This document shows, one piece after another, positions 8,513 through 60,993 of a DNA stretch of 64,000 nucleotides (its first letter is position 1; every line of letters begins with the position of its first letter). Source of the stretch: Ulota crispa (lineage: Eukaryota > Streptophyta > Bryopsida > Orthotrichales > Orthotrichaceae); assembly GCA_963920765.1 (NCBI GenBank), contig OY987249.1, positions 19,254,483 to 19,318,482 of the forward strand, read 5' to 3'. Both the position numbers and the translations under genes were made by a program. The notes under the pieces were generated by a model that saw nothing but the letters and a program-made list of their open reading frames with translations, ran no database searches and was not told the DNA's origin.

Positions 8513-9968
8513 AGGTAGCCGCCCCCATAAGCGTGAGTTTAAGCACTTTAGCATGGTTAGGGTAGTTGAACAAGTGCAAAAATTATATCGTTAGATTGAA
8601 AATAGAGAACAAAAAATATTAGTTTACTTTGGGAAGTTATCCACATATAGTAGTGCCTCTTTAAGATGAACCTTTATAAGAAAAAATGCTTAGCAAAGAT
8701 GAAGGAAATGACTGTCCTTGGCGGTAGGGGAGTTACAAAAGATGTGTTTGGTTACAATTAATGTTTTTCTTACATGAAATGAATATGCTGCTCGGATACC
8801 TTCATCTTATCAAGGCACCACTGCAGTCATGTGTGCGTGGGTATTTTTCAAAGTGCTAAATCACTAAAATTATAGGAATCATGTGTAAGAGATGCTAAAA
8901 ACAAGGCTTGTTGGTTCTTAACTCCTAGAGGACCAGACCCCCTTTTTTAGAAACATAGCGGTTTTGGGCAGGTACCTGTGATTGGAGCTTTTCACATTTT
9001 AGGCTGAAATTTTAATTGAATGTGGGGACAAGGTTTATCTTTCATATGCACTAAATTTCATGACACTTGGAATTATGAGTACAAAGTTATGGCCTAATAT
9101 GTTGTTTTTACGTTTGTCGGGTAGCCTGGGCATATTTTAAAAATCACTTTTTTCAACAACAAAAAATTTAAATGGGTTTAGGAGATTTATGTGAGTGTAG
9201 GAAGCTTCAAACTATTTTGTCTAAATCAACAAGATGAAAGTTATGAGGATTTTTTGTTTCTAGGCAGTTATGGATTCTCTACTCCAAAATAAACTTTGAG
9301 GTCCTTTATTTTACTCAATTTTCAACATTTTGGAAAAAAAACAAAGCCAAAGGATGAAGGTTGTTTATGACAACATTATGACCATTGGGATTGGCATTTT
9401 TCATTTCCATAAGTAAATTCTAAACGATTTAGTGTTTTGAGTCATTCTCTACTTTTTTTACTTAATAATTCTTTTCCATATGTTATACAACTCCAAATGA
9501 GTTGAAACTTTTTTGACATGTACTTTACTTAGGCGGAGTAAGGAACTTAGAGAAGTACCACCCACATGGCCTTTTTCCCTTAGGAATTTCACCTTCTAAA
9601 GGGTAGCTGCCTGGTTTTTCACAAGACGTTTTTGAATATTCAAACCATTCTAATTTCCAATCCATGTGGTGAAAAACTCTGAAATTTTTTCCACATCTTC
9701 CAAAACAAATCCTCTACAAGATCCTACGGTCACATATGCATAAAAAAAAATGTTTTCAAAATTGGTTGATGCTCTACAAATGGCAATTTTGAAGAGTTTT
9801 TGGTGAAAACTTTGCTTGGTCCTTTAGGGGTTAAATAGTGAGATGGGTACTCAAAACCATCATACCGGTCACCCAGCCATCACTTAGTTCACTCATAAGC
9901 ATTTTCTTTTTTAATTATTATGTCAATGACGCCCATGGGGATGGTGAAGCTGATGGGTGCGGCTACCT
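8513..9968. mobile_element. AGGTAG-type TA-flanked MITE, interrupted by a TTAA element
   Basis: Ends AGGTAGCCGCCCCCATAAGC and its inverse (GCTGATGGGTGCGGCTACCT) are flanked by TA on both sides. The element is 1456 bp long because a 917-bp TTAA element (8918-9834) sits inside; without it the host is about 540 bp. The terminal AGGTAG and the following CCCATAAGC block are shared with elements at 46759-47073, 50726-51039 and 53937-54070. Confidence 0.75.
8918..9834 (+). mobile_element. piggyBac-like TTAA MITE, family 1, copy A
   Basis: Bounded by TTAA at both ends, with left end TTAACTCCTAGAGGACC and right end GGTCCTTTAGGGGTTAA. The motif GATCCTACGG is at 9720-9729, 101 bp inside the right TTAA. 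It is 917 bp and nearly identical over its right two thirds to 19829-20745. It contains no transposase frame. It is nested in an AGGTAG-type MITE. Confidence 0.85.
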
Positions 9969-10823
9969 TACTACTAGATAATTGGTGAAGGCTCATTTGC
10001 ATTGGCTAACGTGACGTGTTTCCATGGATGAAGTTTTTGTTTTCTTCTTCCATGCAAGTTCTCCCCCAACAAATTTATGATGCATTTGTAGAACGTGCGA
10101 GAGGATTGTATTTTCTCACATGATGCATTTCCCCATTTCAAACATCCAATGAGGAGGTTAGGTTTAACCTTCAAACACTAGTAGAAAATAGGTAATCAAC
10201 AAAACTTTATTCAAACTTTCAAAGTCAAGACGCCCAAATCAACATTTATGTGTTGATTGTGAATAAAGTGGAATATTCAACCATGGTTGTTGAAGTGGTG
10301 GAATTGTGAAGCATTCATGTGCTTTTAGTTTATATTCATGCTTCTTCTTTTTTTTCACTTTCAATCCTTTCATGCTTCTTTCTAATGACGAATATTTTGA
10401 AAACACAATTTGAATAATGTTTATGATGGATGAATTTGTTAATTCATGGGCTAGTGCAAATGGGGCATAAAGTTGTGCATAGTGGCTAGTTGCGTATTGG
10501 ACGTAAAGTTTTTGTGTTGGCACTTGCCAAAGATCTAATGTGCATCAAACTTGAATGACTAGGGTTTTGGGATACTCACACATATTATCATGACACTTAA
10601 TCCTAACGTGTCAAACAACTGCATTTGAAAATAATTTTTCATCTTAAGTTTAGTAAGTTTATCCTATATTCCTCTTGCTGATTGATCAATTGAATATTTA
10701 TAAGACACATGTGGTGAGCAAGGTTAAAGAACTTTGAGGGCTCTTTAAAAGAAAATGTAAATTTTTAGCCTGTCAAATATAGCACTTGAGTGTTGGTGCA
10801 AATACTCTATTTGGTTGAAAGAT
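9969..10823. other. Non-coding stretch with a CACTA-like end
   Basis: No gene or paired TIR found. CACTAGTAGAAAATAGG at 10176 resembles the terminal motif of plant CACTA (CMC) transposons, but no partner end with a matching 3-bp duplication was found nearby. Confidence 0.4.
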
Positions 10824-11547
10824 TTAACCCATAAAGAACCATTGTCAGTTTGGTTCACATTTGGGATTTCAGGCATGTACCTATGGCTAAACTACTTTGC
10901 ATGATTTTTTGAAACTTTTATTGAAGGTGAGGAATTCATAGATCTACGTGAGAATGTAATTTTTTCTTCATTCTGACAATTATTGAAGAAGCTAAAAATG
11001 AATTTCTGGAAAAAGCTGTTCCCCCGGCAGCCATTTTTTTTTTTTTTTTTTCATTTTTTTCAAATAAAAATCTAAAATAGGTTCTTTAGACTTATATAGA
11101 TGTGGGGAGATTTGGATCATTCAATTTTGATAGATGAGATGAAAGTCATGAGAAGTTTTAGTTTGCGGGTAGGTGTCCTTTTGAGCAAAAGGACACCTAC
11201 CCGCAAACTAAAACTTCTCATGACTTTCATCTCATCTATCAAAATTGAATGATCCAAATCTCCCCACATCTATATAAGTCTAAAGAACCTATTTTAGATT
11301 TTTATTTGAAAAAAATGAAAAAAAAAAAAAAAAAAATGGCTGCCGGGGGAACAGCTTTTTCCAAAAATTCATTTTTAGCTGCTTCAATAATTGTCGGAAT
11401 GAAGAAAAAATTACATTCTCACGTAGATCTATGAATTCCTCACCTTCAATAAAAGTTTCAAAAAATCATGCAAAGTAATTTAGCCATAGATACATACCTG
11501 AAATCCCAAATGTCCCCCAAACAGGCCCTCGGTCCTTTAGGGGTTAA
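10824..11547. mobile_element. Near-perfect 724-bp foldback TTAA MITE
   Basis: TTAA at both ends. Two arms of about 360 bp (10824-11183 and 11186-11547) are inverse copies of each other with only scattered mismatches, meeting at a 2-nt loop within CCTTTTGAGCAAAAGG. Each arm matches the left half of the element at 35538-36490. The outermost ~50 bp are less well matched than the rest. A transcript would fold into a long double-stranded hairpin. The GATCCTACGG motif half is absent from both arms. Confidence 0.9.
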
Positions 11548-12118
11548 CTTAACTCTCCACATGTGGGTTTGCGGGGATTTTTGATCCAAGGATATAAGCA
11601 ACTTGCAATATTCACTAAGGATTATGGCTTGGTCCAACATAAACCCTCAATTGTAAACTTGTATAAGGTTTCATGACTCAAAATGTATATAATTTGCTAT
11701 ATTCACTGAAGGTTCAATGTATGATCTTGAAAATTACGTCCAACCAAATTTTGCCAATTCAACAAAATGCTAAAAGCAATTCGTTATGAACTCATTCAAT
11801 ACATTGACTTATCCTATTTGTAATGGGACAAAACTATGTGAACTCACCTCAAAATTAGAAGAGGTTACATGTCGTATAAAGAAACCTTATACTTGTTTGG
11901 TAAAACTAAAAGACTGGCGGCATTACAAACTATCAAACTCTAACTTGGCACTCTCTAGATTGTAGTGTCGTTACCAATCTCTCAAGAATTTATTTTCTCT
12001 CGCATAAATTAGCACAGAACTGTACATGAACAGTACAGGTTGCAGCTTATGTTTATTTGAGCATGTTACAAATAGCCATTATTTTGTAATTTAGTAACAC
12101 AAGTACTAGTAAGTACTT
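11548..12118. other. Non-coding stretch, nothing recognised
   Basis: Short gap between two TTAA elements. No gene, TIR or RNA feature seen. Confidence 0.5.
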
Positions 12119-13383
12119 TCAACCCCTAAAGCCCTAGGGCCTTTATTTTGTCAAAAGACACTCAAAACTGCCATTCCTAATGCAAAGAATAAATAAGTTT
12201 GAAAATTAGTCTTTTTTCATATCTAGTCATAGGATCTTGTACTAGACTAGTATAAGAATGTGGGAAAAACAAATTCAAAACTTTAATCATCCAAATTGTA
12301 AAATATTTGCATTTGAAGTGTAAAAAACAAAACATTTTTGCACCTTGCATGAAGAGATTATTTGACTTTGAACTTTTTTAACTTAAATTTTTTGCACCAC
12401 AAAGTTTTGAGGTTTATTTTATATAGTGGAAAGTTGAGTTGTGAATCTTTGGAAATAAACCAAAACCAAAAATACTTAATTTTCATTCTTAAAAAAATCA
12501 TTAGGTGGAAGAAGGTATGAGATTGAACAAAAAACTTAAATCGTTAATAACCATGCAATAGAATTGAAATGCAACAATCCCAATGGTGAGATTGTTCTAG
12601 AAAGAAAACTTCACCCTCTCCAACAAAAAGTTTTGAAAAAATGTTAAACTTGCATTCAAAAATGAAGTTTATAAGTTATTTTATGAAAAAGATGCTTGAA
12701 TTGCCCAAAAAACAAGATTGTCCTTAACTTTCTCATAACTAGTCCTTATGAAATGAATCAAATCTTCAGATGTACAAAAAACTATAACCTATGAGAAGAA
12801 GAATTTTTTTTTAAAGTTCAAGTTTTTGTAAATTTTTTGTTGCTGACTAATCTCCATAAATTTGTGCTTATCAAGGCATAACTTTTACTTTTGGGCATAG
12901 ATTGGAATGAAAATCATATTCCCCAAAAGCTTATGTGATTTTCTATCTTCAAAAAAAAGTTTCAAAAAATCAAGACAAAAATTGAGGCTATAGGCAGGGT
13001 TGTCCCCATCACGTCACATCACAACATCCGGGTGTCTGTCCAAACGTCAAGATTCACCCCCAACGTCCATCAGGATGTGTCCATTGACAGAATTGTTAAC
13101 AACGGAAGAGAACAGCCTCTAGACGGACGTTGTGTTGTTTGCATTGGACAGTTTCGGTAAACAAAATACCTCAATGGACGGCCCAAGTCGACAGACTTCA
13201 TCCACGGCTTAGACGGACCGTCAGCATTGTGGACAGATAATGACGCGTCAAGACCCGTCATGACGGACGCATCATGACATCCAGTCGTGAAAAGCTCACG
13301 TCATGTTTTTGACAACCTTGAGTGTAGGTACCTGCCTGAGATCTCATTTATCCCGAGGGGACACTCAAGAATTTAGGGGTTAA
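12119..13383 (-). mobile_element. piggyBac-like TTAA MITE, family 3, copy A, with hAT-like insertion
   Basis: Left end TCAACCCCTAAAGCCC (decayed TTAA), right end TTTAGGGGTTAA. The motif in inverse form (TCATAGGATC, 12227-12236) lies 105 bp from the left TTAA, so the motif half is on the left. The left third matches 42049-42977 and 58175-59081. Its length is inflated by the insertion at 12995-13320. Confidence 0.8.
12995..13320. mobile_element. hAT-like MITE nested in a TTAA element
   Basis: TIRs CAGGGTTGTC and inverse CAAGGTTGTC. Flanking octamers GCTATAGG and AGTGTAGG match at 5 of 8 positions, and comparison with the sibling host at 58175-59081 shows the host sequence resuming right after. 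The interior is GC-richer than its host and rich in GACGGAC and ACGTC words. An 8-bp duplication with CAGGG ends is typical of hAT elements. Confidence 0.7.
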
Positions 13384-13766
13384 ATCAGCAAAAGAGTGCG
13401 GTAATTATTAGCAAATTAAAGCCTACAATTTGGGTGAATTTTTTTATGGCCTAGTTGTAATGCGAAACTGATGACCTTTTCTTTTAAAGGACTGCTGATG
13501 AGTATGTTCCTATCGCAACACCGGAAGCAACTACTTACCAAGAATTAGGATTTCCATGTTATTTTTATTGAGGAAAATTATAAAAAAACACCCCCACATT
13601 TTCTCCAATATTTTGAAAACGCCTCTATTTATTTGGAAAATTTCCCGTGGAGAAAAAACAAGTGCGTCCCTAGATTGCCCGCCTCTATTATTTTTTGAAA
13701 CATTGGAGATATCCCAAATATTGTACAGAGTGCTAAGCTTGTGTTGTGGTGGTTCAAGTTTAACCC

Positions 13767-18151: not shown

Positions 18152-18805
18152 TTAACCCCTCATTGCCCGAGGAGCCCAAATTGGGCCCCTATGAATTTTA
18201 TTCAAAGATGCCTGACCTTTTTTCAAGACTTTTTTTAGTGATTATTGTTATTTTTAAATTCTTATTGAAGTCTAGTTTCAGCATTAGGAGTCTGATTTTG
18301 AAAATGAATCAAAGTGATTTGTCTATTCAAGATTTTGTGCAAGGGTGTCCATTGTAAATCTTCACTTTTTAGTGTTGAAGGCTCCTAGAAATGAGCCTCA
18401 AGTACACTAGAACTTGGAGAAAAAATCACATTAAAATTTCAACTAAAAAAATTGTAGAATAAATTTTGAGAAGCCATAAATTGATTGGGGTTATACATGT
18501 TATACTCTACATACTCATATTTTTTTGGTACCATCAGTTTTAGGTTTGAGATGCAAAAAAAGGATTGAAAGATTTCAAATCACTTTTGCACTTTTAACAC
18601 CCTCATGATCAAACATTATAATCTTTCAAACCATAAGTGATATTGTTGTGATTTCTTTTCCTATGTGGTCTATAACATATCTACTTTGGATTTGTATGGT
18701 TGCGCTTTAGAGAAAATTGATAGAATTGATCACAATGCCTACATTTTACTCACTTTCAAGCAAATTTTGAGACACTCAAAAATACCATGGACGGTGAGGG
18801 GTTAA
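18152..18805. mobile_element. piggyBac-like TTAA MITE, family 8, copy A
   Basis: Left TTAACCCCTCATTGCCC, right GGACGGTGAGGGGTTAA. It is 654 bp and the inverse orientation of 34151-34805 (655 bp). Shared blocks include AAGGGTGTCC and GAGCCTCAAGTACACTAG. Nothing is coded. Confidence 0.8.
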
Positions 18806-19828: not shown

Positions 19829-20745
19829 TTAACCCTTAAAGGATCAGACCCCCTTTTTTAGAAACATAGCAGTTTTGGGCAAGTACTTGTGATTGGAGCT
19901 TTTCACATTTTAAGCTGAAATTTTAATTGAATGTGGGGACAATGCTTATCTTTCATATGCACTAAATTTCATGACATTTAGAATTATGAGTAAAAAGTTA
20001 TGGCCTAATATGTTGTTTTTACGTTCGTCACGCAGCGTGGGCAAATTTGAAACATCACTTTTTTCAAAAACTTTAAAAAAAAATTGGATTAGGAGATTTA
20101 TGTGAATGTAGGAAGCTTTGAATCATTCTGTTTGGATCCTTGAGATGAAAATTTTGAGAGTTTTTTGTTTGCGGGCAGTTATGGATTCTCTACTCCAAAA
20201 TAAACTTTGAGGTCCTTTATTTTACTCAATTTTCAACATTTTGGAAAAAAAACAAAGCCAAAGGATGAAGGTTGTTTATGACAACATTATGACCATTGGG
20301 ATTGGCATTTTTCATTTCCATAAGTAAATTCTAAACGATTTAGTGTTTTGAGTCATTCTCTACTTTTTTTACTTAATAATTCTTTTCCATATGTTATACA
20401 ACTCCAAATGAGTTGAAACTTTTTTGACATGTACTTTACTTAGGCGGAATAAGGAACTTAGAGAAGTACCACCCACATGGCCTTTTTTCCTTAGGAATTT
20501 CACCTTCTGAAGGGTAGCTGCCTGGTTTTTCACAAGACGTTTTTGAATATTCAAACCATTCTAATTTCCAATCCATGTGGTGAAAAACTTTGAAAAAATT
20601 TCCACATCTTCCAAAACCGTTCTTCTACAAGATCCTACGGTCACATATGCATAAAAAAAAATGTTTTCAAAATTGGTTGATGCTCTACAAATGGCAATTT
20701 TGAAGAGTTTGTGGTGAAAACTTTGCTTGGTCCTTTAGGGGTTAA
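19829..20745 (+). mobile_element. piggyBac-like TTAA MITE, family 1, copy B
   Basis: Left TTAACCCTTAAAGGATC, right GGTCCTTTAGGGGTTAA. The motif GATCCTACGG is at 20631-20640, 101 bp inside the right TTAA. It has the same length (917 bp) as 8918-9834 and only sparse differences from it, concentrated in the centre. Confidence 0.87.
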
Positions 20746-20904: not shown

Positions 20905-20939
20905 GGGTCAAGTGTTGGGAATGGCTACAAATTTTTTAA

Positions 20940-22327: not shown

Positions 22328-23224
22328 TTAACCCCTAAGCGCCCATGTTGTTGTCACCAAAATCAAGGTTTTTGGAGACCTGCAACTTTGATGCATTGTA
22401 TCTCAGTCAGTCGGATGATTCACAAGAAGTAATCATTGAAAATAGTAGAACACCTACTTAGAAGATGGCTTGCAAATTTTGGGAACAACTGACCGTGGGA
22501 GATAGGAGAGTATAACATTTGATCAAACAACATGTGATGGCAAAATCTCATTTTTTGGTAGGTAGCTGCTATTTGATGATTTTTACAAAATTCTATAAGC
22601 CACTAATTCATCTCAATTTTTGTGAGTAGCAAGATTACATGTGAATGCACTCACCTGTAAATTATTGAAGATTGCACTTCATTTTATGTCAAGTTTTAGG
22701 GCTTCAAATCTCTATTGCACGGAAAACGATGACCGGCACAATTAGTGACAGTTGCCATAACAAGGGTCTAGAACATGCTTGAACCCTTGCCAACAACTTT
22801 CGCGCTACCACAAAGCACACACAAGGAAGCTTGCAAAGGATAATGACTGGTTGCACCTTGTGAAACTTTGTTTGCTACCACGCCATGTATGGTGTTTCAC
22901 CCAATCAAATTTCTTGCATTACTTGTACAACATTTGACTTTCCTCGCCATTACTCCATTGGCATGGACAACTTGAATGCCGTCATAATTTTAGTTTATAG
23001 CAAGATCAAAAAATTAGATCCGGTTCCTTAAATAAACTCTTGAAATCCCCAAAGATGTCTTTGGGGAAAATTGTGTTGAAGTCAACATAAACTACTTGAT
23101 GTTTTCATGCTTCTAACTCAATTTTTTGCGTTAGAAGCATGAAAACATCATGTAGTTTATGTTGACTTCAACACAATTTTCTACTAGTGGATAGTGTATT
23201 GTCTTTGGGGCACTTAGGGGTTAA
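22328..23224. mobile_element. piggyBac-like TTAA MITE with GCGCCC ends, copy B
   Basis: Left TTAACCCCTAAGCGCCC, right GGGCACTTAGGGGTTAA. The interior matches 30167-31243 in inverse orientation (for example CACCAAAATCAAGG and ACTTCATTTTATGTCAAG). Near its right end it carries a hairpin insertion at 23066-23189 that the sibling lacks. Confidence 0.8.
23066..23189. repeat. 52-bp-arm hairpin ending in a CACTA motif
   Basis: Arms 23066-23117 and 23130-23181 are inverse copies with one mismatch, around a 12-nt loop. Read on the minus strand, the right end is CACTAGTAGAAAATTGTG, the terminal signature of plant CACTA elements; the left arm lacks the CACTAGT part. It may be a truncated CACTA foldback, or a hairpin that could feed small-RNA production. 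Confidence 0.8.
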
Positions 23225-24906: not shown

Positions 24907-25824
24907 TTAACCCCTAAAGGCCCAAGGAGCCCACTTTGGGCTTTATGAGAACTCGGGCAGGCTCTCCTGACTTCATCATTTGGAAACTTTTCATGAAACT
25001 TTTAGGATGGATGCTATTCATCATAATCTACATGTGAAGCTTTATTTCATGTCGTTTTGATAAGTAATGCAAAAGTTGTAAGGTTTTTTCAATTTCAATG
25101 TCAAACCAGGCAGCAAAATTTTTTTTATTTTATTTTTATTTTTTTATTTATAAAATTTTATAGATTGATACCTACTCAAAAAAATTGAATTGCTCAATTC
25201 CAAATAATGAGGTAAGAGTTAAAAGGAGTTTTATTTGCGGGCAATGAAGGTAGGAAGATGGTAGAAAATACATATAAAGTTATCTTTTACTCTCAATTTT
25301 GAAAATTTTCAAATGAAAATGAAAAATGAAGACACTAATTTTCCATTAAAGCATTCTCAGCATTGGGATTAACAATTTTCAAATTCTTCCAAAACTTATT
25401 AGCATATTAGTTATATCTTTCATTCATCAATACCTTTCACTTTACAATTTTTGAAAAAATGAATCCAAATTTTTTTTGGTTAAACTTTTTTATACATGCT
25501 TTCAACCCATTTTCCAATATATTGCTAAAATTGCACAAGAAATACAACATACATGTTTATCTCTAAAAAGTTTGAAAAACAAAACTTCACCTTTGGAAGG
25601 ATTAGAAAAGCCTACATTTTGAAGTTTGGGCACATTGATCTTGCAATTGGTGGGGATATTCATTCTGAAATTTGGGGAGAATGTAGTTGTGCAAGTCAAC
25701 TAAAGGATCCTACGGTTGGATTTGTTAAAATGGTAAGTTTTAATGAAGATTTTGACCTTGCTGTGGGGACTAGTATTTTCAAGTAGTTTTGGGCCTCTAA
25801 ACAAGAAAGAATTTTAGGGATTAA
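24907..25824 (+). mobile_element. piggyBac-like TTAA MITE, family 7, copy A
   Basis: Left TTAACCCCTAAAGGCCC, right TTTTAGGGATTAA. The motif GATCCTACGG is at 25706-25715, 105 bp inside the right TTAA. It is 918 bp, the same length as 33231-34148 and 45799-46716, and nearly identical to the first of these. A 77-codon frame (25553-25786) is not preserved in the sister copy. Confidence 0.9.
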
Positions 25825-27623: not shown

Positions 27624-28565
27624 TTAACCCCTAAAGGACCAAGGCTGTTTTTTGAGAAAAAATCTCAGAAACTGCCAATTTTTAGTGCACTGCCCAAGAT
27701 TGAACATAAAAGCTTGTTTTTCTGAATTCCAACCATTTAGAGGGTGTGTTAAACTAATAAACCAATGTGTGATAAAATTTTAGCCCATTTGACCGCGTAC
27801 ATTGAAAGATTATGTCATTTGAAGTGTAAAACTTTTTTTCATTCCTACAAAACAAAGTCAGCAAACTTTAAGCTCTCTTGGAGTAAATTTTTGCTCTCCA
27901 CATGTTTGAGCTTTTTTACCATTCATAAATATATGATGCTAGGTTCACTTTCCAAAATTTGCAAAAGCATGTATAGAGTCTAGCTTATAAAACACCTTGC
28001 AATGGAAGATATTAAATGAATTGGCAATACACTAGTCAATTTTTCATGATTTCTTGTGCAATGAGGAAGTCTTTTATCCAAAATTTGAGCATTGAGAAGT
28101 TAGAGACAAACATCTCAAATGTGAGGAAAACGTTTCAAGAGTTTTGGATTTATAGATTTCAAGATAATAGGGCCTAAAGTTAGAAGAAAATATTTTTTCT
28201 CGAAACAACCCGAACATAGTTAACAAAGTTTAACTCCTCTTAGAATGGGATTTGAGAGCTTTTTTTTCTTTTTTTTTGACAATGTAAATTATATTTTATT
28301 ACTTGCATACTTGCCAAATTTCAAAAGTTGATGAGAGTTTTAGCATAAGATTCTCCAAAGATGCCCAAGCTGCCAAAATTCTTTTAGGTAGCATAAAATT
28401 TTGAATTGCCCGTCCAATTGGGAAAAAATGACATTTCCACTTGTAAGACACATATCCACACCTTGTGTAACAACTTTGAGAATATCCAATAAAAAATGAC
28501 TTTGTATGACCCTACTTGAGTTCTCAAGTGTCCTTTGAACAGATAATTGGTCATTTAGGGGTTAA
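27624..28565. mobile_element. piggyBac-like TTAA MITE, family 9, copy A
   Basis: Left TTAACCCCTAAAGGACCAAG, right GGTCATTTAGGGGTTAA, 942 bp. It shares its interior with 32264-33222 and the truncated copy at 63430-64000. It lacks GATCCTACGG, but CCAACCATTTAGAGG sits at the same ~105-bp offset from the left end. Confidence 0.85.
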
Positions 28566-30166: not shown

Positions 30167-31243
30167 TTAACCCCTGAGCGCCCTAGAGGACCAAAAGTGT
30201 CCTCTCATGATTTCAAAGGCTTGTTTGAGGTTCTAGATCTACTTTTATGATCTTTCTATAAACTACAATTATGAAAGTATTCAAGTTGTTCATGCCAATG
30301 GACTAGTGGCAAGGCGAACCAAATGTTGTACAAGTGCCTCAAGAGATTTGATTTGGTGTAACACCATACAAAGCATGGTGGCAAACAATGTTTTACAAGC
30401 TGCAATTGATCAATACCTCTTGCAAGCTTCCTTGTGTGTGCTTTGTGGTAGCGGGAAATTTGTTGGCAAGGTTCAAGCATGTTCTAAAACCTTATTGTGG
30501 CAACCCTCACTAATTATTTCAATCATCGTTTTTTGTGCTATAGCAATTTGAAGTCCTAAAACTTGACATAAAATGAAGTGCCATTAGGAGGGATTTGGAC
30601 CCCCAAAGAGGCCCCTTCCTCCAAATCCATGGGAGCTTTGGGAACACCTTCCACATGGGCAGTGTGTTGCAAGCTAGGCAGGCACTACGTCGACCACGTC
30701 AGCCTGTATTATTTTATTATTTTATTATTTTTCAAAGAAAAAAAACCAACAAAATTCTAATTTTTTTAAAGAGTTCTTTTTTATTTTTTGATTTTTTGAT
30801 TTTTTTAAATTAATTTATGTGACAACCAGCAGGGGCTGGTTCCCAACATTGGGAACAAAAAAACTCACAGACCCTTTGGAGGTCCAAATCCCTTGTAATA
30901 ATCCTTCAATGATTTGCAAATGTGTTCATTCACATCAAGTCTTGCAGCTCACAATAATCGAGATGAATCCGGGACTAATAGAATTTTGTAAAAATCATCA
31001 AATAGCAACTACCTACCAAAAATGAGATTTTGCCATCACATGTTGTTTGATCAAATGTTACACTCCCATCTCCCATGGTCAATTGTTCCCAAAATTTACA
31101 AGTCGTTTTCTAAGCAGGTGTTCCACTATTTTCAATGGTCACTTTTTGTGGATCATCCAATTGACTAAGGTACAATGCATAAAAGTTGTAGGTCTCCCAA
31201 AACCTTGATTTTGGTGAAAACGACTTGGGCGCTTAGAGGTTAA
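30167..31243. mobile_element. piggyBac-like TTAA MITE with GCGCCC ends, copy C
   Basis: Left TTAACCCCTGAGCGCCC, right GGGCGCTTAGAGGTTAA. It is the inverse of 22328-23224. A 305-bp TIR insertion at 30589-30893 accounts for its greater length. Its right TTAA is shared with the next element. Confidence 0.82.
30589..30893. mobile_element. Unclassified TIR insertion nested in a TTAA element
   Basis: Left AGGGATTTGGACCCCCAAAG and right CTTTGGAGGTCCAAATCCCT are inverse over about 20 bp. Comparison with the sibling host at 22328-23224 shows the insertion is extra sequence. No target duplication was recognised. Confidence 0.65.
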
Positions 31244-32263: not shown

Positions 32264-33222
32264 CTAACCTCTAAAGGACCAAGGGTGTTTTTTGAGAAAA
32301 AATCTTAGAAACAGTCAACTTTTAGTGCATTGCCCAAAATTGAAAATAAAGTTCTTTTTTTTCAATTTCAACCATACGAAAGTGTGTCAAATAGATAAAT
32401 TAATGTGTGCAAAAATTTCAGCCCATTTGAGTGCACGGATTGTAAGATTATAACGTTTGAAGTGAGAAAAATAGCTTTTCTTCTTTCTTGCAAAACAAGG
32501 TCAGCATACTTTGAGCCTTCCTAGAGTAAAGTTTTTGCTCTACACAAATTTGAGCACTTAGACCATTCACAATTATACTATGTTAGGTTCACTCATAAAA
32601 AAATTCAGATGCAAAAATAGAATCTAGCTTATTCTAAATCACCTTGCAATGCAAGGAGGTTTAGTGAATTGGCAATATATTAGGTCATTCTTTCATGATT
32701 TCTTGTGCAATGAGGAAGTCTTTTATTTGAAATCTGAACAGTGAAAAGTTAGAGACAATCATTTGGAATATGTGAAAAAGAATTTTAAGAGTTTAGGATT
32801 TATAGGTTGAAAGATAATAGAGCTGAAGTTAGAGGATTCTTTTTCTTGAAACTACCTGAACATAGTTAACAAAGCTTGACTCCCTTCTAAAAATAATGTG
32901 AGGGTTCATCTTTCTTTTTTCTTTGACAATTGTACATCATGTTTTTTTAGTTACATACTTGCCAAATTTCAAAAGCTGATGAGAGTTTTAGCATAAGATT
33001 CTCCAAAGATGCTGAAGCTGCCCAAGTTGCACAAATTCTTTTGGATAACATAACTTTTGAATCGGGCATCTGATTGGGGAAAAAATTACATCTCCACTTA
33101 CAAGATACATATTTGCACCTTGTATATTAATTTTGAGAACATCCAATAAAAAATGACTTCATATGACCCTACACGAGTTCTCAACTGGCTGTTGAACAAC
33201 CGCTTGGTCTTTTAGGAGCTAA
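32264..33222. mobile_element. piggyBac-like TTAA MITE, family 9, copy B
   Basis: Both terminal TTAA have decayed to CTAA (left CTAACCTCTAAAGGACC, right GGTCTTTTAGGAGCTAA). The interior matches 27624-28565 throughout with many substitutions, so this is an old copy. The next element begins 8 bp later. Confidence 0.8.
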
Positions 33223-33230: not shown

Positions 33231-34148
33231 TTAACCCATAAAGGCCCAAGGAGCCCACTTTGGGCTTTATGAGAACTCGGGCAGGCTCTCCTGACTTCAT
33301 CATTTGGAAACTTTTCATGAAACTTTTAGGATGGATGCTATTCATCATAATCTACATGTGAAGCTTTATTTCATGTTGTTCTGATAAGTAATGCAAAAGT
33401 TGTAAGGTTTTTTCAATTTCAATGTCAAACCGGGCAGCAAAATTTTTTTTATTTTATTTTTATTTTTTTATTTATAAAATTTTATAGATTGATACCTACT
33501 CAAAAAAATTGAATTGCTCAATTCCAAATAATGAGGTAAGAGTTAAAAGGAGTTTTATTTGCGGGCAATGAAGGTAGGAAGATGGTAGAAAATACATATA
33601 AAGTTATCTTTTACTCTCAATTTTGAAAATTTTCAAATGAAAATGAAAAATGAAGACACTAATTTTCCATTAAAGCATTCTCAGCATTGGGATTAACAAT
33701 TTTCAAATTCTTCCAAAACTTATTAGCATATTAGTTATATCTTTTATTCATCAATACCTTTCACTTTACAATTTTTGAAAAAATGAATCCAAATTTTTTT
33801 TGGTTAAACTTTTTTATACATGCTTTCAACCCATTTTCCAATATATTGCTAAAATTGCACAAGAAATACAACATACGTGTTTATCTCTAAAAAGTTTGAA
33901 AAACAAAACTTCACCTTTTGGAAGGATTAGAAAAGCCTACATTTTGAAGTTTGGGCACATTGATCTTGCAGTTGGTGGGGATATTCATTTTGAAATTTTG
34001 GGACAATATAGTTGTGCAAGTCAACTAAAGGATCCTACGGTTGGATGTGTGAAAAAGTAAGTTTCAATGAATATTTTGACCCTAGTTTGGGGACTAGTAT
34101 TTTGAAGCAGTTTTGGGCCTCTAAACACAAAAGAATTTTAGGGGTCAA
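33231..34148 (+). mobile_element. piggyBac-like TTAA MITE, family 7, copy B
   Basis: Left TTAACCCATAAAGGCCC, right TTTTAGGGGTCAA. The motif GATCCTACGG is at 34031-34040, 104 bp from the right end. It is 918 bp and nearly identical to 24907-25824, so these two spread recently compared with the other families. Confidence 0.88.
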
Positions 34149-34150: not shown

Positions 34151-34805
34151 TTAACCCCTAAATGCCCAAGGCCTTGCTGAACTTCTTGGCATTTTCAGGA
34201 AAGTGAACAATCAACCAACCTTTTCACAAATCTCATCAAGTTTTTTTGAATTGTAACCGTACAAATTTAAAGTTGATGAGTTGGAGATTACATGGAAAAT
34301 GAAAAAGAAAGCACAACAATATCACTTATAGTTTGAAAGATTATAACGTTTGAACGTGAGGGTGTTAAAACTGCAAAAGTGACTTGAAGTTTTCTAATCC
34401 TCATTTCACATGTCAAATCTAAAATGTTGGTCATTAAAAAATATGAGGTTCAAGGTCATTACATGTTTAACCTCAACCAATTTACAACTTTCAAAATTTA
34501 CTCCTATATTTTTTCTGAATGGATTTCTAATGCGGATTTTTCTCCAAGCTCTAGTGTATTTGAGGCTCATTTTCAAAATCTTTCAACACTAGAAATCTCA
34601 AGATTGCAACGGACACCCTTGTACAAAATCTTGAATAGAAAAATCATGAACATTCATTTTCAAAATCAAATATTTGATACTGAAAGTAGACTTCAAAACA
34701 AACTTGTGTTCAAAAAAAACCAAAAATAGTGATTTGATAAAATTTTATTTGTGTTCCAAGTTTTGCAAACATCCAAATTGGGTGCGTTGGGCATTTAGGG
34801 GTTAA
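34151..34805. mobile_element. piggyBac-like TTAA MITE, family 8, copy B
   Basis: Left TTAACCCCTAAATGCCC, right GGGCATTTAGGGGTTAA, a perfect inverse over 17 bp. It starts 2 bp after the end of 33231-34148. It is the inverse-orientation sibling of 18152-18805. Confidence 0.85.
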
Positions 34806-35537: not shown

Positions 35538-36490
35538 TTAACCCCTAAAGGATCGTTGTTCCTTTGGGGGACAAATGGGATTGTGGGCATGTACCTATGG
35601 CTAAACTAATTTGCATGATTTTTTGAAACTTTTATTGAAGGTGAGGAATTCAAAGATCTACATGGAAATGTCATTATTTCTTCATTCTGACAATTATTGA
35701 AGAAGTTATGCATGAATAGCTGAAAAACATGGGACTATCGGGTAGCAAAAAAAAATTTGATTTTTTTAAAATTTTTTCTTTGAAATTAGTTCTTTAGATT
35801 TTTATGTATTTGGGAAGCTTTGAATCATTCAATTTTGATAAATGAGATGAAAGTTATGAGAAGTTTTAGTTTGCGGGTAGGTATGGGACTCCCAAACCTC
35901 CATTCCTTTTCCCCCTTGTAAAACTTTTTGCTTTACTTTTTTGAGCTCTTTGAGTATTTGTTTTTTTACTCTTTTTTTTCCAAGTTGTAGTAGACTAAGA
36001 TTCCTTGGTTTTTACCTTTTGGATCACAATAATTCAGATTTCTAAATTTTACATAAATCCTCCAATTTTGCTTAGTGTATAAGTAAAATTCTAGACCTTC
36101 CAGCATTGCAGGATTTTACAAAGTGTGACCTACATGTCCAATTCATCTAAAAATTCTCCCACACATACCTAACTTGGTTTTGGACATGATAAAAAAATCC
36201 TCAACTTTGCGTAGAGTAACTTTTTTGGGTTATCAATGATCAAAAACTTTTGAAAATTTTGGGCAGTAAAGAAAAAAACTTTTTTCTTCACTTTGGATGT
36301 AAATATCTCACTCCTCAACATTTAGAGTGAGCTGATTTTTTCCCAAGAAGTACCTCCCATAATCTAGGCCAAGATCCTACGGTTGGATTTTCCAAAAAAA
36401 AGTTTTTTTTTTCTCTTCTACTCACTCTCCTAAAAGTGGCAGTTTTACACTGAAATTCACAAAAAAAGGCTGCTGTCCTTTAGGGGTTAA
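35538..36490 (+). mobile_element. piggyBac-like TTAA MITE, family 2, copy A
   Basis: Left TTAACCCCTAAAGGATC, right GTCCTTTAGGGGTTAA. The left half (to about 35882) matches each arm of the foldback at 10824-11547. The right half carries GATCCTACGG at 36373-36382, 104 bp from the end. It is the inverse of 40832-41778. Confidence 0.85.
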
Positions 36491-40831: not shown

Positions 40832-41778
40832 TTAACCCCTAAAGGACTGAGCCTTTTCTTCAAGTTAAAGTCATTGATAATTGCCACTTCCAGGGGAATG
40901 AGTAGAAAAGTAGGAAAATTTCTGTTTTTAAAAATCTAACTGTAGGATCTTGCTCTAGACTGCCAGAGGAACTTGTGGGAAAAAATAAAGTCAAATCAGA
41001 TGGAGAGGAGTGAGATATTTACATTTAAAATGTAAAAAAAAAAAAAAACAAGTTTTGTTTCCGTGCTGCCCAAAATTTCAGAAGTCTTTAACCACTCTTA
41101 TATCAAAAAAAAAACTCTACGCAAAGTTGAGGTTTATTTTTCCCATGTAGAAGATCAAGTTAGGTATGTGTGGGAGAATTTTCAAATCAATTGGAACTAT
41201 ACAACACATGGGGGAAAATAGTAAGTAAAAAGAAGTAAAGAATGAGTCAAATCACTAAATTGTTAAGAATTTAATTATTAAAATGAAAGAATGAAAATCC
41301 CAACGGTTTTAATGTTGTGATAAACAATCTACTTCATTTGGTTCAGTTTTTTTCCCAAAATAATGAAAATTGAGTAAAATAAAGGACTTCAAAGTTTATT
41401 TTAGAGTAGAGAATCCCTAGCTACCCGCAAACAAAAACTCCTCATAACTTTCATTTGATTGATTGAAATTGAATGATTCAAGGCTACTCACATATAAACA
41501 AATTTAAAGAACCAATTTCAAAAAACAAAATTCAAAAGATGTGATTTAAAAAAAAAAATGGGCTGCCCAGATAGGCAGTCCTCCCCAAATTTTCATAAAA
41601 TCATGCATAATTTCTTCGTCAAATGTTGAAATGAAGAAAAAATTAGATGTCCACATAGATCTTTGAATTCTCCACCTACAATAAAAGTTTCAAAGAATTG
41701 CACAAAATAGTTTAACCATAGATACATGCCTGAAACCCATTTGTCCCCCAAATGGACAAACAGTCCTTTAGGGGATAG
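40832..41778 (-). mobile_element. piggyBac-like TTAA MITE, family 2, copy B
   Basis: Left TTAACCCCTAAAGGACTG; right CAGTCCTTTAGGGGATAG with a decayed TTAA. The motif in inverse form (CTGTAGGATC, 40940-40949) lies 105 bp from the left TTAA. It is the opposite orientation to 35538-36490, which it matches in both halves. Confidence 0.83.
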
Positions 41779-42048: not shown

Positions 42049-42977
42049 TTAACCCCTAAAGGACCATGGCCTTTATTTTGTCAAAAGACACTCAAAACTG
42101 TCACTTCTATGGCAAAGAGTAAAAAAGTTTGAAGATTGGTCTTTTGCATATCTAACCATAGGATCTTGTACTAGACTTGTATAAGAATGTGTTTTTCAAA
42201 ACTCAAGAACTTTGACCGTATAGATTGCAAGATATTTGCGTTTGAAGTGTAAAAAATAAGCTTTTTTGCACCTTGCACAACTAGATTATTTGACTTTGAA
42301 CTTTTTTAACTTAAAATTTTTGCACCATGGAGTTTTGAGGTTTATTTTTTTATAGTGGGGAATTGAGTTGAGAATCTTTGGAAAAAAACCAAAACAAAAA
42401 ATGCTTAATTTTCATTCTAAAAAAAACATTAAATAGAAGAACGTTTGAGATTGAACAAAATCTTACATTGTTAATAACCTTACAATGGAATTGAATCACA
42501 ATAATCCCAATGATGAGATTGTTCTAGCAAGCAATCTTCACCCTTTCCAATATTTTTTTTTTGCAAAAATGTTATATTTGCATTCAAAAATGAAGTTTAT
42601 AAATTATTTTCTCAGAGCAAAACCACACCTACCCGCAAACGAAAACTTCTCATAACTTTCATCTCATTTATAAAAATTGAATGATTCAAAGCTCCCCACA
42701 TTTATATAAGACTAAAGAACCTATTTCATATTTTTATTTGAAAAAAATGAAAATTTTAAAGAAGTTTTTGGCTGCCCGAGGAGCAACATTTTCCAATTTT
42801 TCATGCATAACTTCTTCAATAAATGTCGGAATGAAGAAAAAATTACATTCCCATGTAGGTTTTTGAATTCCTCACTTTCAATAATAATTTCAAAAAATCA
42901 CACAAAGTAATTTAGCCAGAGTTACATGCATGAAATCCCATTTATCCCCAAGGGGACTTTGGTCCTTCAGGAGTTAA
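42049..42977 (-). mobile_element. Chimeric TTAA MITE: family 3 left half, family 2 right half
   Basis: The left half (TTAACCCCTAAAGGACCATG, then CCTTTATTTTGTC) follows 12119-13383 and 58175-59081, including inverse motif CCATAGGATC at 42157-42166, 105 bp from the left TTAA. From about 42610 the sequence switches to the foldback arm seen at 11186-11547, ending GGTCCTTCAGGAGTTAA. Confidence 0.85.
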
Positions 42978-45436: not shown

Positions 45437-46748
45437 AGGTAGGAGGCTCAAAAAGTGAGCCTTTAAGGGTTGATCTGCTTTTTCATGGTCTTCCCTAGAC
45501 AGGAAGGTTTTTGTGTAATTTCTAAACAAAGAGAAATGGATGCTAAATGTAACTCAATTTCTTTCATGTTTTTTGAGGCATTATTGAATTGTTGATGAAT
45601 TTTCAATTGGTTTTGTAGTAGGTAACTATTTATGATTCTAGATCTCCCATAAATTGCCCTCTTGTAATGTATAAAGAGACTAGGTGAATTCAAGACTTGT
45701 GATTGGCTTTTGCAATAAAAGACAACTTTTTTTTTTGATTAAGGAGGGTCCATTCAAAAAACACCTCATATCCATTCTTGGGCTACTTGTGGGACTCCTT
45801 AACCCCTAAAATTGTTTTGTGTTTAAAGGCCCAAAATTGCTTCAAAATACTAGTCCCCAAAGCAAGGTCAAAATCTTCATTGAAACTTACTTTTCAACAA
45901 ATCCAACTGTAGGATCCTTTGGTTGACTTGCACAACTATATTGTCCCAAAATTTCAAAATGAATATCCCCACCAATTGCAAGAATAATGTGCCTAAACTT
46001 CAAATTGTAGGTTTTTTCTAGTCCTTCTAGAAGGTGAAGTTTTGTTTTTCAAACTTTTTAGAGATAAACACGTATGTTGTATTTCTTGTGCAATTTTAGC
46101 AATATATTGGAAAATGGGTTGAAAGCATGTATAAAAAAGTTTAACCAAAAAAAATTTGGATTCATTTTTTCAAAAATTGTAAAGTGAAAGGTATTGATGA
46201 ATGAAAGATATAACTAATATGCCAATAAGTTTTGGAAGAATTTGAAAATTGTTAATCCCAATGCTGAGAATGCTTTAATGGACAATCAGTGTTTTCATTT
46301 TTCATTTTCATTTGAAAATTTTCAAAATTGAGAGTAAAAGATAACTTTATATGTATTTTCTACCATCTTCCTACCTTCATTGCCCGCAAATAAAACTCCT
46401 TTTAACTCTTACCTCATTATTTGGAATTGAGCAATTCAATTTTTTTGAGTAGGTATCAATCTATAAAATTTTATAAATAAAAAAATAAATAATAAATAAA
46501 AAAATTTTGCTGCCCAGTTTGACATTGAAATTGAAAAAACCTTACAACTTTTGCATTACTTATCAGAACGACATGAAATAAAGCTTCACATGTAGATTAT
46601 GATGAATAGCATCCATCCTAAAAGTTTCATGAAAAGTTTCCAAATGATGAAGTCAATAGAGCTTGCTTGAGTTCTCATAAAGCCCAAAGTGGGCTCCTTG
46701 GTCCTTTAGGGATTAACTGATAGGAGGGTCTTTTTGAGCCTCCTACCT
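45437..46748. mobile_element. AGGTAGGAGGCTCA MITE interrupted by a TTAA element
   Basis: Left AGGTAGGAGGCTCAAAAAG, right TTTTTGAGCCTCCTACCT, TA on both sides. Without the nested 918-bp element the host is about 390 bp. It is the same end family as 54583-54908. Confidence 0.8.
45799..46716 (-). mobile_element. piggyBac-like TTAA MITE, family 7, copy C
   Basis: Left TTAACCCCTAAAATTG, right GGTCCTTTAGGGATTAA. The inverse motif CTGTAGGATC at 45907-45916 is 105 bp from the left TTAA. It is inverse to 24907-25824 and 33231-34148 and of identical length (918 bp). Confidence 0.88.
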
Positions 46749-49348: not shown

Positions 49349-50121
49349 TTAACCACTAAGCGTTTCCCCAGAAAGTTTTGCATAACTCCAATATGAAACC
49401 TTCAGCTTATTCTTTGAGTTTTTGGAAAGTTTAAGAAGTTTTCACATAATCTGAACTGGTCATTTTGTACCCAACTATAAAGCAAATGTTTAGAACCAAT
49501 GTGATTTCAAATCCAAGTAAATCTGCAAAATTCACACCATTGAAAATCTCATATTTGTCAATTTGGGCAATACTTAACAATATGGATTTTGGACTTTGAT
49601 GTAATTTTTTCCCAAAAAAAAGATTTACCTAATGGATGATCCCATGAGATTGTGTTTAGTTGTACTTGATGGAAAAGAAAACTCCTCAAATAGAAAAAAC
49701 TCCAAAAGATATGGTCACTCAAAGTAACTAGATTCCAGTAACTCCTCACCTTAGAGCTACAAAAACCTTGCCTAAATCAAGAAAAAAAAAGTGACACCTC
49801 ACCAAACTTCTAACTTGTACAATACAAGACATGGGAGCATCCATCCCATATGCTTTTTAAGCCGTTCCCTTTGATTGCTCAAAGATATTCTTCTCCTAAT
49901 TGTTGAAAAAATATAATATTCTCTATATTTCTTGTAGAATCTAGAGCAAAGAAAGCGTTTCAAGGAATGACAAGTCTATTGGAAAATCTTTTTGAACTAA
50001 CAACTCCATTTGCACTTGAGTGGCAGACCAAAATTTGAGCTCAAATGCCTCTTTTGTCTACTTTCACGCCTCCAAGCACCACCTTTGGCCATATTGGGAT
50101 CTTTGGATGCTTAGGGGTTAA
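49349..50121. mobile_element. piggyBac-like TTAA MITE, GCATCC family, copy B
   Basis: Left TTAACCACTAAGCG, right GGATGCTTAGGGGTTAA, 773 bp. It is the inverse of 14550-15298, with shared blocks such as CTCTAGATTCTAC (inverse) and GCCATATTGGG. Confidence 0.78.
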
Positions 50122-53366: not shown

Positions 53367-53386
53367 TTACAAGTGAAGAAAAGTTA

Positions 53387-56631: not shown

Positions 56632-56677
56632 ATAAAAATTTCGCCAAAATATAGGGGTTATTTTCAAAATTTCCCTT

Positions 56678-57139
56678 ATCTAATAATAAGGTGACCAATG
56701 TCAGCATGGATAAACTAACTATTTTTTTTCTTTTTCTTTCTTTTTTGGTGAAGGGTCAGTGTCCTATTTATTTTTCCTAGGGGCCAGAGACTCAGAGCCA
56801 GGGCAGTGCGTGCCCTTAGACGACGTCCTTCTCTGGACAGACTCTCCGGCCAGCCCCCCCACCACCAGACATGTAAGGCTTGTTCCATGATTCCCCCAAC
56901 TTATGCATAATTGAGAAATCCGTTATGTCCATCTCTAGCTTTTATGTTGTGTTCTTCCTTTGGCATCTTATGGGTGGGGGAATGCTAATGTAAGAATACC
57001 CAATCTCGATCATGAACCTAATGTTGGTTATATGTATACAAGGAGTACATTTACAATCTCAAAAGAAGGTAAGTCATAAACAATTAATCTTCTATGATAC
57101 AAAAGATAAGTTATCTATGGCGTACCTAAACTTGAGATC
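56678..57139. other. Non-coding stretch, nothing recognised
   Basis: A pyrimidine-rich patch near 56720 and a GC-richer patch at 56780-56870. No gene found. Confidence 0.45.
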
Positions 57140-58044
57140 TTAATTTTTTGAGAATCAAACCTTTTTTTTAGCAGCATAGCAATTTTGGGCAAGTACTTGT
57201 GATTGGAGATTTTCATATTTCAGGTTAAAATTTTAACAAAATGTGGGAACAAGGTTTATCTTTCATATGCATTGAATTTCGTGACATTTGGAAGTATGAA
57301 TAAGAATACATGACCTAATATGTTGTTTATTCCTTTGGCAAGCAGCCCAGGCAAATTTCAAAAAATCACCTTTTCAAAAACTAAAATTCAAAATTGGTTG
57401 AGAGGATTTATGTGAATTTGTAAAGCTTTGAATCATTCCGTTTTGATCAATGAGATGAAAGTAATGAGGAGTTTGTTTGCAAGCAATCATGGATTCTCTA
57501 CTCTAAAATAAACTTTGAAGTCCTTTATTTTGCTTGATTTTTGTTATTTTGGAAAAAATACATAGAACCAAAAGATGTAAATTATTTATTACAACATTAC
57601 AAAATTTGGGATTGGGATTTTTCATTTCCATAATTAAGTATTTTGAATCATTCTCTAATTCTTCTTACTTACTATTTTTTCCCCATATGTTGTATAATTC
57701 CAAGTGATTTGAAACTTTTTTGACATGTACCCTATTTAGGTGGAATAAGGAATTTAGAGAAGCACCACCTTCATGACCTTTTTTCCTTAGGAATTTCACC
57801 TTCTGAGGGGTAGTTGCCTGAGTTTTGACAAGATGTTTTTGAATATTCAAACCATTCTATCTTCCAATCCATGCAGCATATTTTTTTTTTATTCTTTTTC
57901 TAAATCTTCTAAAATTATCCTACTACAAGATCCTACTATTACATATGCATAGAAATATTTTTGTTTTCAAATTTGATTGATGCTCTAAAAGTGACAATTT
58001 TGGAGAGTTTTTGGTGGAATGCTGCTTGGTTCTTTAGGGGTTAA
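57140..58044 (+). mobile_element. piggyBac-like TTAA MITE, family 1, copy C (old)
   Basis: The left end is decayed (TTAATTTTTTGAGAATC); right GGTTCTTTAGGGGTTAA. Motif variant GATCCTACTA at 57929-57938, 102 bp inside the right TTAA. It aligns throughout with 8918-9834 and 19829-20745, at lower similarity. Confidence 0.8.
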
Positions 58045-58174
58045 ATGAACACTATGTGTACATAGTAACAGCATTAGGTTCAATGATTGGGAATGAGTAT
58101 ACCTACCTAATGTCCCACGTCCATCTTTGCAAGGTTTAACTCAATGTGATATCCCAACTTTGTTAGATTATTCA

Positions 58175-59081
58175 GTAACCCCTAAAGGACCGTGGCCTTT
58201 ATTTTGTCAAAAGACACTAAAAATAGCCATTTCTATGACAAAGAGTAAAAAGGTTTGAAAATTGATCTTTTGCATATCTAACCATAGGATCTTGTAATAG
58301 ATTAGTATAAGGATGTGTAAAAAAAATCAAAAACTTTGACAGCACAAATGGCAAGTTTAAAGTGTAAAAAAAAAACTTTTTAATTTGCAACTTGCATGAC
58401 TAGATTAGTTGACTTCAAATTTTTGCACCAAAGAGTTTGGAGGTTTAAAACTTTATGGTAGAGAATTGAGTTGAGAATCTTTGGAAAAAAAAAAAAAAAA
58501 AAAAAAAAAAAACTAATTTTCATTCTTAAAAAAAAATTAGGTAGAGGAAGGTATGAGATTGAACTAAAACTTAACTTGGTAATAACCCTGCAATTGAATT
58601 AAAATGCAATAATCCCAATGATAAGATTGTTCTAATAAGCAAACTTCACCCTATCCAACAATTTTTTTTGGAAAAATGTTAAACTTGCATTCAAAAATGA
58701 AGTTTATAAATTATTTTTTTAGGAAGATGCTTAAATTGCCCAAAATACAAGATTGTCCATAACTTTCTCATAACTAGTCTGAATGGAATGTATCAAAGCT
58801 TCACATGTAGACACAAATATAATCTATTAGAAAAAAGAACCTAAAAATAAAAATTCAGGTTTTAGAGAAAAAATTGTTGCCCAGTCTCCCCAAATTTGTG
58901 CTTATCTAGGCATAACTTTTGCTCCCAGGCATAGATTGGAACAAAAGTGATATTCCCCAAAAGCTAATATATTTTCAATTTTTGAAAAAAAAATCAAAAA
59001 ATTAGGACAAAAATTGAGGCCGTAGGTACTTGCCCAAAATCCCATTTGTCCCCCAAAGGGCCATGGTCCTTTAGGGGTGGG
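58175..59081 (-). mobile_element. piggyBac-like TTAA MITE, family 3, copy B
   Basis: Left GTAACCCCTAAAGGACC, right GGTCCTTTAGGGGTGGG; both TTAA are decayed. The inverse motif CCATAGGATC is at 58282-58291, 103 bp from the left end. It provides the uninterrupted reference for 12119-13383. A poly-A run lies at about 58485-58512. Confidence 0.8.
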
Positions 59082-59972: not shown

Positions 59973-60259
59973 TTAACCCCTAAAGGCTCAAACAATGTTT
60001 TTTGGCAACATAGCAATTTTGGGCAGTACACTACAAATAGATTTTTTTCTTTCTTTCTTTGAAGTGTTTGCACATGATGTGTCCAAGGAGTAGCATTAAG
60101 GCCCAACAAATTTCATAACTTTCGACTTCATGGTTCAAAAGTTATTGCATGATATGTAGTTTTCTTTGATCGGGGGCAACATGGGCAGCTCAAAAACCTT
60201 CTTTAAAAATTACATTTTTTGAATTTTGTTTTTTGAAATTGGTTCTTTAGAGATAAATA

Positions 60260-60349
<90 letters not shown>

Positions 60350-60993
60350 TTGGGAAGCTTTGAATCATTCAATAAGATGAAAGTTATGAGGAGATCATGT
60401 TTGTAGGCAGTTATGGATTCCCTACTCTAAAAAAAACTTTTAAGTCCTATGTTTTACTCAATTTTTAATATTTTGGAAAAAGAAACAAAGCCAAAGTATG
60501 TAGATTGTTTATTACAACATTTCAACCATTGGGATTGGAATTTTTTGTTTTTCATAATTAAATTCTTAACAATTTAGTGTTTTGTATCATTCTCTACTTC
60601 TTTTTACTTACTATTTTTTTCCTATGTGCTATACATTTCCAAATGATTTGAAAATTTTCAAGTGTGTACCTGACTTGCCTTGAAGAATGAATACAAAAAA
60701 TTACAACCATTTTGAAACTTTTTTCATACAAATATGACCTTGTGAAGTGTAACTGCCCGGATTTTTGCAGGGACAAAAAACAACTTTTTGTCAATTCAAA
60801 CTCAATCACCTAACAATTCACATGGCAAAAATTTCTGAATTTTTTTCCACATCTTTGGATACTAGTGTACTACAAGATCTTACGATTAGATGTGTCCAAA
60901 AATAACTCTTATCTAAAATTTGATACTTGCACTACAAATGACAGTTTTGGGACAGTTTTGATGAAAACATAGTCAAAAGCCTTTAGTGGCTAA
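59973..60993 (+). mobile_element. piggyBac-like TTAA MITE, family 1, divergent copy with TA run
   Basis: Left TTAACCCCTAAAGGCTC, right GCCTTTAGTGGCTAA. Motif variant GATCTTACGA at 60876-60885, 104 bp from the right end. A TA microsatellite at 60267-60347 has expanded inside it. Confidence 0.78.
60267..60347. repeat. (TA)n microsatellite
   Basis: About 80 bp of TA repeats within the TTAA element at 59973-60993. Confidence 0.95.

Follow-up and report, generated by a model that had tools for sequence, protein, structure and literature searches.

A subterminal word at a fixed distance from one end of piggyBac-type elements in the moss Ulota crispa

We have analysed a 64,000-nucleotide stretch of the 275-Mb genome of the moss Ulota crispa (C8:19254483-19318482, hereafter 'the window'), which is rich in TTAA-flanked elements with CCCCTAAAGG-type inverted tips. 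Twelve copies of ~0.9 kb, piggyBac-type with TTAA flanks and CCCCTAAAGG tips, carry the word GATCCTACGG, exact or with one or two mismatches, at a constant distance from one end. An earlier note on this DNA had proposed that such a word might be an asymmetric subterminal signal or a promoter element. The asymmetric, one-ended signal is strongly supported: position and orientation are fixed, the word sits mostly at one end, and it is retained in many families, both across clades in which the spacers between word and tip are unrelated and in gene-less copies. We consider it probable that the word is an orientation-specific subterminal site of the right piggyBac end, i.e. the end 3' of the transposase gene, where the transposase would bind.

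The word in the window and across the genome

The affiliation of the elements is seen at several levels. Eight of the twelve word-bearing ends read TTAA and the remaining four are one substitution off; the short terminal inverted repeats (TIRs) start with CC followed by C or T, and the TTAA-joined tip TTAACCCCTAAAGG has 15,411 exact copies genome-wide as compared to 1 for the reversed control. The piggyBac DDE domain PF13843 (DDE_Tnp_1_7) has 120 matches in the genome (best 1.3e-73; some are pieces of a single locus), and one transposase open reading frame (ORF) matches the solved transposases of Trichoplusia ni (T. ni) piggyBac (3.6e-20) and piggyBat (1.4e-16). Nine transposase loci are flanked by paired TTAA-CCC ends ~5-6 kb apart, and the window elements match the 3' end of one transposase locus, L029, at 72-80% over pieces of 58-122 bp; DDE_Tnp_1_7 transposases are thus found within elements that have like ends. 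Downstream of the DDE region, visual inspection picks out a Cys-rich CxxC..CxxC..CxxxC..H segment, intact or degraded, in the majority of 19 loci; it yields weak Pfam B-box matches (best E 0.0042, below the cut-off). The sole ORF of at least 150 aa in the window (ATG, GTG or TTG start; 3952-4620) lies outside the elements, which are therefore gene-less, as is typical of miniature inverted-repeat transposable elements (MITEs).

All twelve sites listed in the earlier note are present, one of them at 42156 rather than 42157. The word is exact in five, has one mismatch in four and two mismatches in three (Table 1). The claimed spacing of 102-106 bp from the nearer TTAA holds in that it is fixed: we measured 101-105 bp from the element end in 12/12 cases (eight read directly, four counted by hand). 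'Nearer TTAA' is literally wrong, since the sites at 25706, 40940 and 45907 have closer TTAAs on the same side, and 'nearest element end' is the correct description; the end tetramer itself is decayed in 4/12. Allowing up to two mismatches, the window holds 24 matches to GATCCTACGG against 13.5 expected, a count reached by 0/100 shuffles.

The twelve had also been described as different elements. They are indeed twelve copies, but of only about four subfamilies (our grouping), with 47-63% identity between and 65-97% within subfamilies, and they can be aligned along their length save for the undefined outer end of the copy at 12119 and the degraded end of that at 57139. Common ancestry accounts for most of the fixed spacing within the twelve alone, and this homology rules them out as stand-alone proof of function. 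Among the 12-column windows of the twelve-copy alignment, the motif ranks second in conservation (0.917, as compared to 0.944 for the tip and a mean of 0.691). A mid-element block near 36030 in the element at 35538-36490 and its equivalents (CATTGGGATT in most copies) reaches 0.91, just under the motif. Within the 3'-terminal 260 bp of these copies, where the observed-to-expected CpG ratio is 0.22 against 0.38 in the window, the motif contains the only CpG that we noticed at about one offset in three subfamilies. It reads CG in 6/12 copies and TG or CA in 5/12, as expected of post-insertion decay; because all three subfamily-D copies have CA, part of the change could be older.

The word and its fixed spacing extend well beyond the window. 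Genome-wide, exact GATCCTACGG occurs 1645 times (175 for the reversed word); the combination of exact word and exact tip CCTTTAGGGGTTAA, separated by 76-96 bp, is found 502 times (0 reversed). For one subfamily, a first look at the genome gave 3158 candidate copies. The looser pattern of TTAACCCY followed by AACCGTA at a gap of 84-110 is found 3085 times (with a few double counts where TTAACCC is repeated), as compared to 35 and 47 times at the shifted gaps of 54-80 and 114-140, and to 23 times for AACCGTA in the opposite orientation at 84-110; the corresponding reversed-pattern controls gave 92, 90, 73 and 79. Among the first 100 places listed for this pattern, all on contig C1, the core lies at 103-108 in 81 (mode 106), and tips of many kinds are seen among the places listed. 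A variant from other clades, ACCGCTGAAA, was found 26 times (0 reversed), with hand-counted spans of 114-117 bp in 24 cases; at least 3 of these 26 loci had given rise to the variant pattern in the first place.

Transposase-bearing and gene-less ends

To look beyond the twelve related copies we turned to transposase loci, 20 of 10 kb (L015, L019 and L032 without a usable 3' end) and 20 of 1.6 kb (L034, L036, L038, L039, L040 and L042 without one). With the ends of neighbouring gene-less elements left out (3' ends of L016, L043, L044 and L051; 5' ends of L013 and L029), 27 3' ends remained, among them that of L035, together with 12 5' ends. In an unseeded word search of 24 non-duplicate 3' ends, TAACCG at ~100-107 ranked top, with 13 ends against 0.86 expected and a score of 23.1 as compared to at most 13.7 in 10 shuffled sets. 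A placement model seeded with AACCGTA and restricted to offsets 86-115 places the core, reading inward TAACCGTA, at 104-107 in 24/27 transposase-bearing 3' ends, and for the most part it begins 104-107 bp from the outer T of TTAA. Clade variants of the core include AATCGTA, GACCGCTGAAA and CATCGTTGAAT. When the seeded model was refitted without the clade of the end being scored, the best match within the first 250 bp fell at 100-110 in 19/27 3' ends; with the matrix from all 27 3' ends, it fell there in 0/12 5' ends.

In four 3' ends (L028, L029, L047 and L050) the best match with their own clade excluded lies at 158-165. These ends have a second motif-like site (CACCGTA or AACCGTT) ~51-60 bp further inward. 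Conserved blocks in autonomous 3' ends are also seen near offsets 147, 158-167 and 180-190, in profiles computed from 31, 29 (L016 and L035 left out) or 26 ends.

The gene-less elements of 600-1100 bp tell how strictly the site keeps to one end. Scored at a threshold of 5.5, which was chosen after the data had been seen and is exceeded by 5/1122 background windows, automatically paired elements have the site at one end in 17/21 cases, at both in 1/21 and at neither in 3/21. Adding 12 elements by hand (8 from the earlier note's list, 2 for a motif seen nearby and 2 from the TIR list) gives 27/33, 1/33 and 5/33, respectively; the 21 are the fairer count, with 4 of them among the original twelve and several pairs being relatives. 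A threshold of 6.0 with an earlier matrix gave 17/26, 0/26 and 9/26, with five pairs outside 600-1100 bp. The five site-less elements include two of the original twelve copies, with decayed motifs (score 5.1), and one fold-back element, and the carriers include elements with tips unlike CCCCTAAAGG, namely CCCCTCATTG, CCCCTGAGCG, CCCCTCAACG and CCCTTTAGAG. In the gene-less element L023:8575-9489 (tip CCCTTTAGAG) motif-type sites are present at both ends (6.6 and 11.4).

The left end is organised differently. Most autonomous 5' ends have a palindrome immediately internal to the left TIR, as in T. ni piggyBac; it lies at roughly offsets 19-40, and its sequence differs by clade. The mean dyad score is 6.54 (14 ends) or 6.75 (the 12 retained) as compared to 3.70 in shuffled sequences, the best dyad of L026, L028 and L030 lying elsewhere; a weaker excess is seen in the same region of gene-less elements (5.00 vs 3.72 for 5' ends, 4.86 vs 3.84 for 3' ends). 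The palindrome is not repeated at the right end as it is in T. ni: the 3' motif differs from it and shows no clear dyad symmetry. We also considered the 3' motif as a palindrome of its own, like the T. ni internal repeat and with suspected ATCY...RGAT arms, and rejected this since its best axis is only 0.39 complementary (29 ends). A possible likeness to promoter elements of the plant snRNA type was also considered in passing and set aside.

How the right-end site may be read

By analogy with T. ni piggyBac and piggyBat, the site is best read as part of a synaptic complex that is asymmetric and contains an inner dimer. The transposase, perhaps as an inner, non-catalytic dimer, would bind the right-end site, and a catalytic dimer would hold the tips. 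A left end (LE) would thereby be paired with a right end (RE), LE-LE or RE-RE pairing would be avoided, and the geometry of the transposase-DNA complex would account for the constant distance. Elements without the site would be poorly mobilised, so amplified families would retain it, and decay would set in after insertion. More tentatively, and with some doubt, we suggest that a single right-end label may be read by, or together with, the transposases of many diverged clades as the tips and the left palindrome diversify, so that one transposase could mobilise the gene-less copies of other families.

The chief competitor, which we regard as unlikely, is a host-factor site: the right end would depend on one host protein that binds or bends DNA, and the core would stay near constant as the tips and the left palindrome diversify. 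In its favour, the core is common to clades that mostly share <45% transposase identity (111/136 pairs, from 17 3' ends with a compared transposase domain), tips and left palindromes do differ, and TAACCG fits YAACNG, which we take to be a plant MYB-type consensus. However, AATCGTA variants violate that consensus, and motif similarity increases with transposase identity (r 0.32, reached in 1/2000 permutations, over 133 pairs with 3 closer pairs excluded; spacer r 0.22), a trend that favours the transposase reading.

Another alternative is passive inheritance, with all elements descending from one ancestral end and the word not yet lost. The length-wise alignment of the twelve window copies and their roughly four subfamilies speak for it. 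The earlier note had named uniform similarity over the 105 bp as the sign of such inheritance, and across transposase clades the similarity is anything but uniform. In a pairwise identity profile of the 3' ends (344/351 pairs; 7 pairs with similar spacers excluded), identity is highest at 105 (z 10.7), stays near the shuffled level at offsets 20-90 (maximum z 3.1) and has a weaker peak near 182 (z 7.0); these z values are based on the spread along the shuffled profile and, as pairs share sequences, are not probabilities. Across clades spacer length has been kept and spacer sequence lost. The motif CpG, moreover, is kept in three of the four subfamilies of these CpG-poor elements. Shared ancestry explains part of the pattern, and the word is not merely inherited; passive inheritance as the whole account is very improbable. 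That the word acts as promoter of the transposase gene is unlikely, given its location at the transposase 3' end and its retention in elements without the gene. A transcription or silencing element in a wider sense (promoter, terminator or small-RNA start within the 3' end), for all that it would suit a fixed position and orientation, is highly improbable for a site that points inward, antisense to the transposase, and persists in gene-less elements, which should be able to spread without being expressed.

Several observations weigh against a transposase-bound right-end site. No acceptable match is present in L035, and the matches in L013, L027 and L037 are no more than weak once their own clade is excluded. 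The permutation result for motif and transposase would also be expected from plain descent. Five of the 33 gene-less elements are below threshold at both ends and one is above it at both. Autonomous 3' ends also show a somewhat raised dyad score (4.56 vs 3.63 shuffled). The Cys-rich-domain sites of T. ni piggyBac and piggyBat are palindromic, which the 3' site here is not to any convincing degree. The site is farther from the tip than the right-end repeat of T. ni, which lies within RE63 according to excerpts of PMC7351741. Excerpts on piggyBat, finally, place its distal sites on the left end and report that activity goes up when the innermost is removed (PMC11707139, PMC13405395).

Asymmetric piggyBac ends and distal subterminal sites are already known. 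In the excerpted parts of the reports on T. ni piggyBac, a palindrome at bp 17-33 of the left end binds a dimer of Cys-rich domains (PMC7351741), and the LE35/RE63 pair carries one and the same 19-bp palindrome twice, once per end, with the right-hand copy within 63 bp (PMC7351741, PMC11707139). The moss elements resemble this system, as far as the excerpts describe it, in the TTAA target, the asymmetric ends, the palindrome just inside the left tip and a right-end internal repeat farther in; they differ in that the right-end site starts ~100 bp from the tip, is not clearly palindromic and bears no resemblance to the left palindromes. The left end of piggyBat (Myotis lucifugus) is described in excerpts as carrying GCGGGA at 11-16, 55-60 and 99-104 in addition to palindromes (PMC11707139; preprint PMC13405395). 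The likeness here is in subterminal sites that extend to ~120 bp on one end, in dissimilar left and right ends, and in the piggyBat tetramer with its inner non-catalytic dimer; the distal site of the moss elements, however, belongs to the transposase-3' end, differs in sequence and recurs in many clades. From the same partial sources, the complex of T. ni piggyBac is proposed to be asymmetric with an inner dimer, and such a complex is reported for piggyBat (PMC7351741, PMC11707139; preprint PMC13405395).

The coral CMITEs of Acropora, as outlined in excerpts of PMC2872659, are ~100 bp long, 75 bp of which form a conserved interior, and they bear little resemblance to the autonomous element; its authors propose an involvement in transposition and cross-mobilisation. 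They, too, are TTAA MITEs with an interior better conserved among families than the TIRs, whereas the moss elements have in common with many autonomous clades a short word placed at a fixed offset. Among the literature matches listed, and as far as their excerpts go, a distal right-end word common to diverged clades and their gene-less derivatives is not described; nor do titles or abstract openings among these matches describe piggyBac amplification in a moss.

In cells, piggyBac ends need to be asymmetric, and this asymmetry was termed enigmatic (PMC7351741, in excerpt). A genome with >100 piggyBac transposase matches and thousands of word-bearing ends amounts to a natural mutagenesis of such ends. 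It points to one distal right-end site, together with its orientation and allowed spacing, and may help explain the wide spread of such gene-less families.

Elements and neighbouring features of the window

The word-bearing elements, six further site carriers and two counter-examples are collected in Table 1.

Table 1. Elements of the window and their sites (window coordinates; mismatches are relative to GATCCTACGG; scores refer to the threshold of 5.5)
Coordinates	Strand	Feature	Site	Score and remarks
8918..9834	+	subfamily A element, 917 bp		10.9, right end only; TIR pair, alignment
9720..9729	+	site in element 8918..9834	exact GATCCTACGG, 101 bp from right-end TTAA	
12119..13041	-	degraded subfamily D element, outer end (13041) undefined	GATCCTATGA, 12227-12236, 2 mismatches	5.1, below threshold; end tetramer TTGA
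19829..20745	+	subfamily A element	exact, 20631-20640	
24907..25824	+	subfamily B element	exact, 25706-25715	
33231..34148	+	subfamily B element	exact, 34031-34040	end tetramer TCAA
35538..36490	+	subfamily C element	exact, 36373-36382	
40832..41778	-	subfamily C element	GATCCTACAG, 40940-40949, 1 mismatch	
42049..42977	-	subfamily D element	GATCCTATGG, 42156-42165, 1 mismatch	
45799..46716	-	subfamily B element	GATCCTACAG, 45907-45916, 1 mismatch	
57139..58044	+	subfamily A element, degraded left end	GATCCTACTA, 57929-57938, 2 mismatches	5.1, below threshold
58175..59081	-	subfamily D element, both end tetramers decayed	GATCCTATGG, 58282-58291, 1 mismatch	end tetramer TTAC
59973..60993	+	subfamily A element with TA tract	GATCTTACGA, 60876-60885, 2 mismatches	end tetramer CTAA
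18152..18805	+	element, tip CCCCTCATTG	offset 105 from right end, ~18695-18701 minus strand, hand-placed	6.9, right end only
22328..23224	-	element, tip CCCCTAAGCG	offset 104 from left end, ~22431-22437, hand-placed	5.9, left end only
27624..28565	-	element, CCCCTAAAGG/CCCCTAAATG tips	offset 108 from left end, ~27731-27737, hand-placed	7.0, left end only
30167..31243	+	element, GAGCG/AAGCG tips, hand-paired	offset 104 from right end, ~31134-31140 minus strand, hand-placed	7.1, right end only
32264..33222	-	element, decayed tips, hand-paired	offset 107 from left end, ~32370-32376, hand-placed	9.2, left end only
34151..34805	-	element, tip CCCCTAAATG	offset 105 from left end, ~34255-34261, hand-placed	12.2, left end only
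10824..11547	.	counter-example: fold-back element	at neither end	-1.9, -1.9
49349..50121	.	counter-example: element with AAGCG-type tips	at neither end	-1.6, -6.1

The arms of the fold-back element are 248 bp long and 89% complementary, the inner 150 bp being 100% complementary and 2 bp apart. Elements adjoin at 34148/34151 and 31240/31243, abutting or with a common TTAA, as if inserted at the neighbour's target site. Outside the elements, a tRNA gene is found at 1837-1909 on the minus strand (Rfam RF00005, 66.4 bits), and exons at ~4291-7145 on the plus strand, read by eye, form a candidate CENH3-like histone H3 gene.

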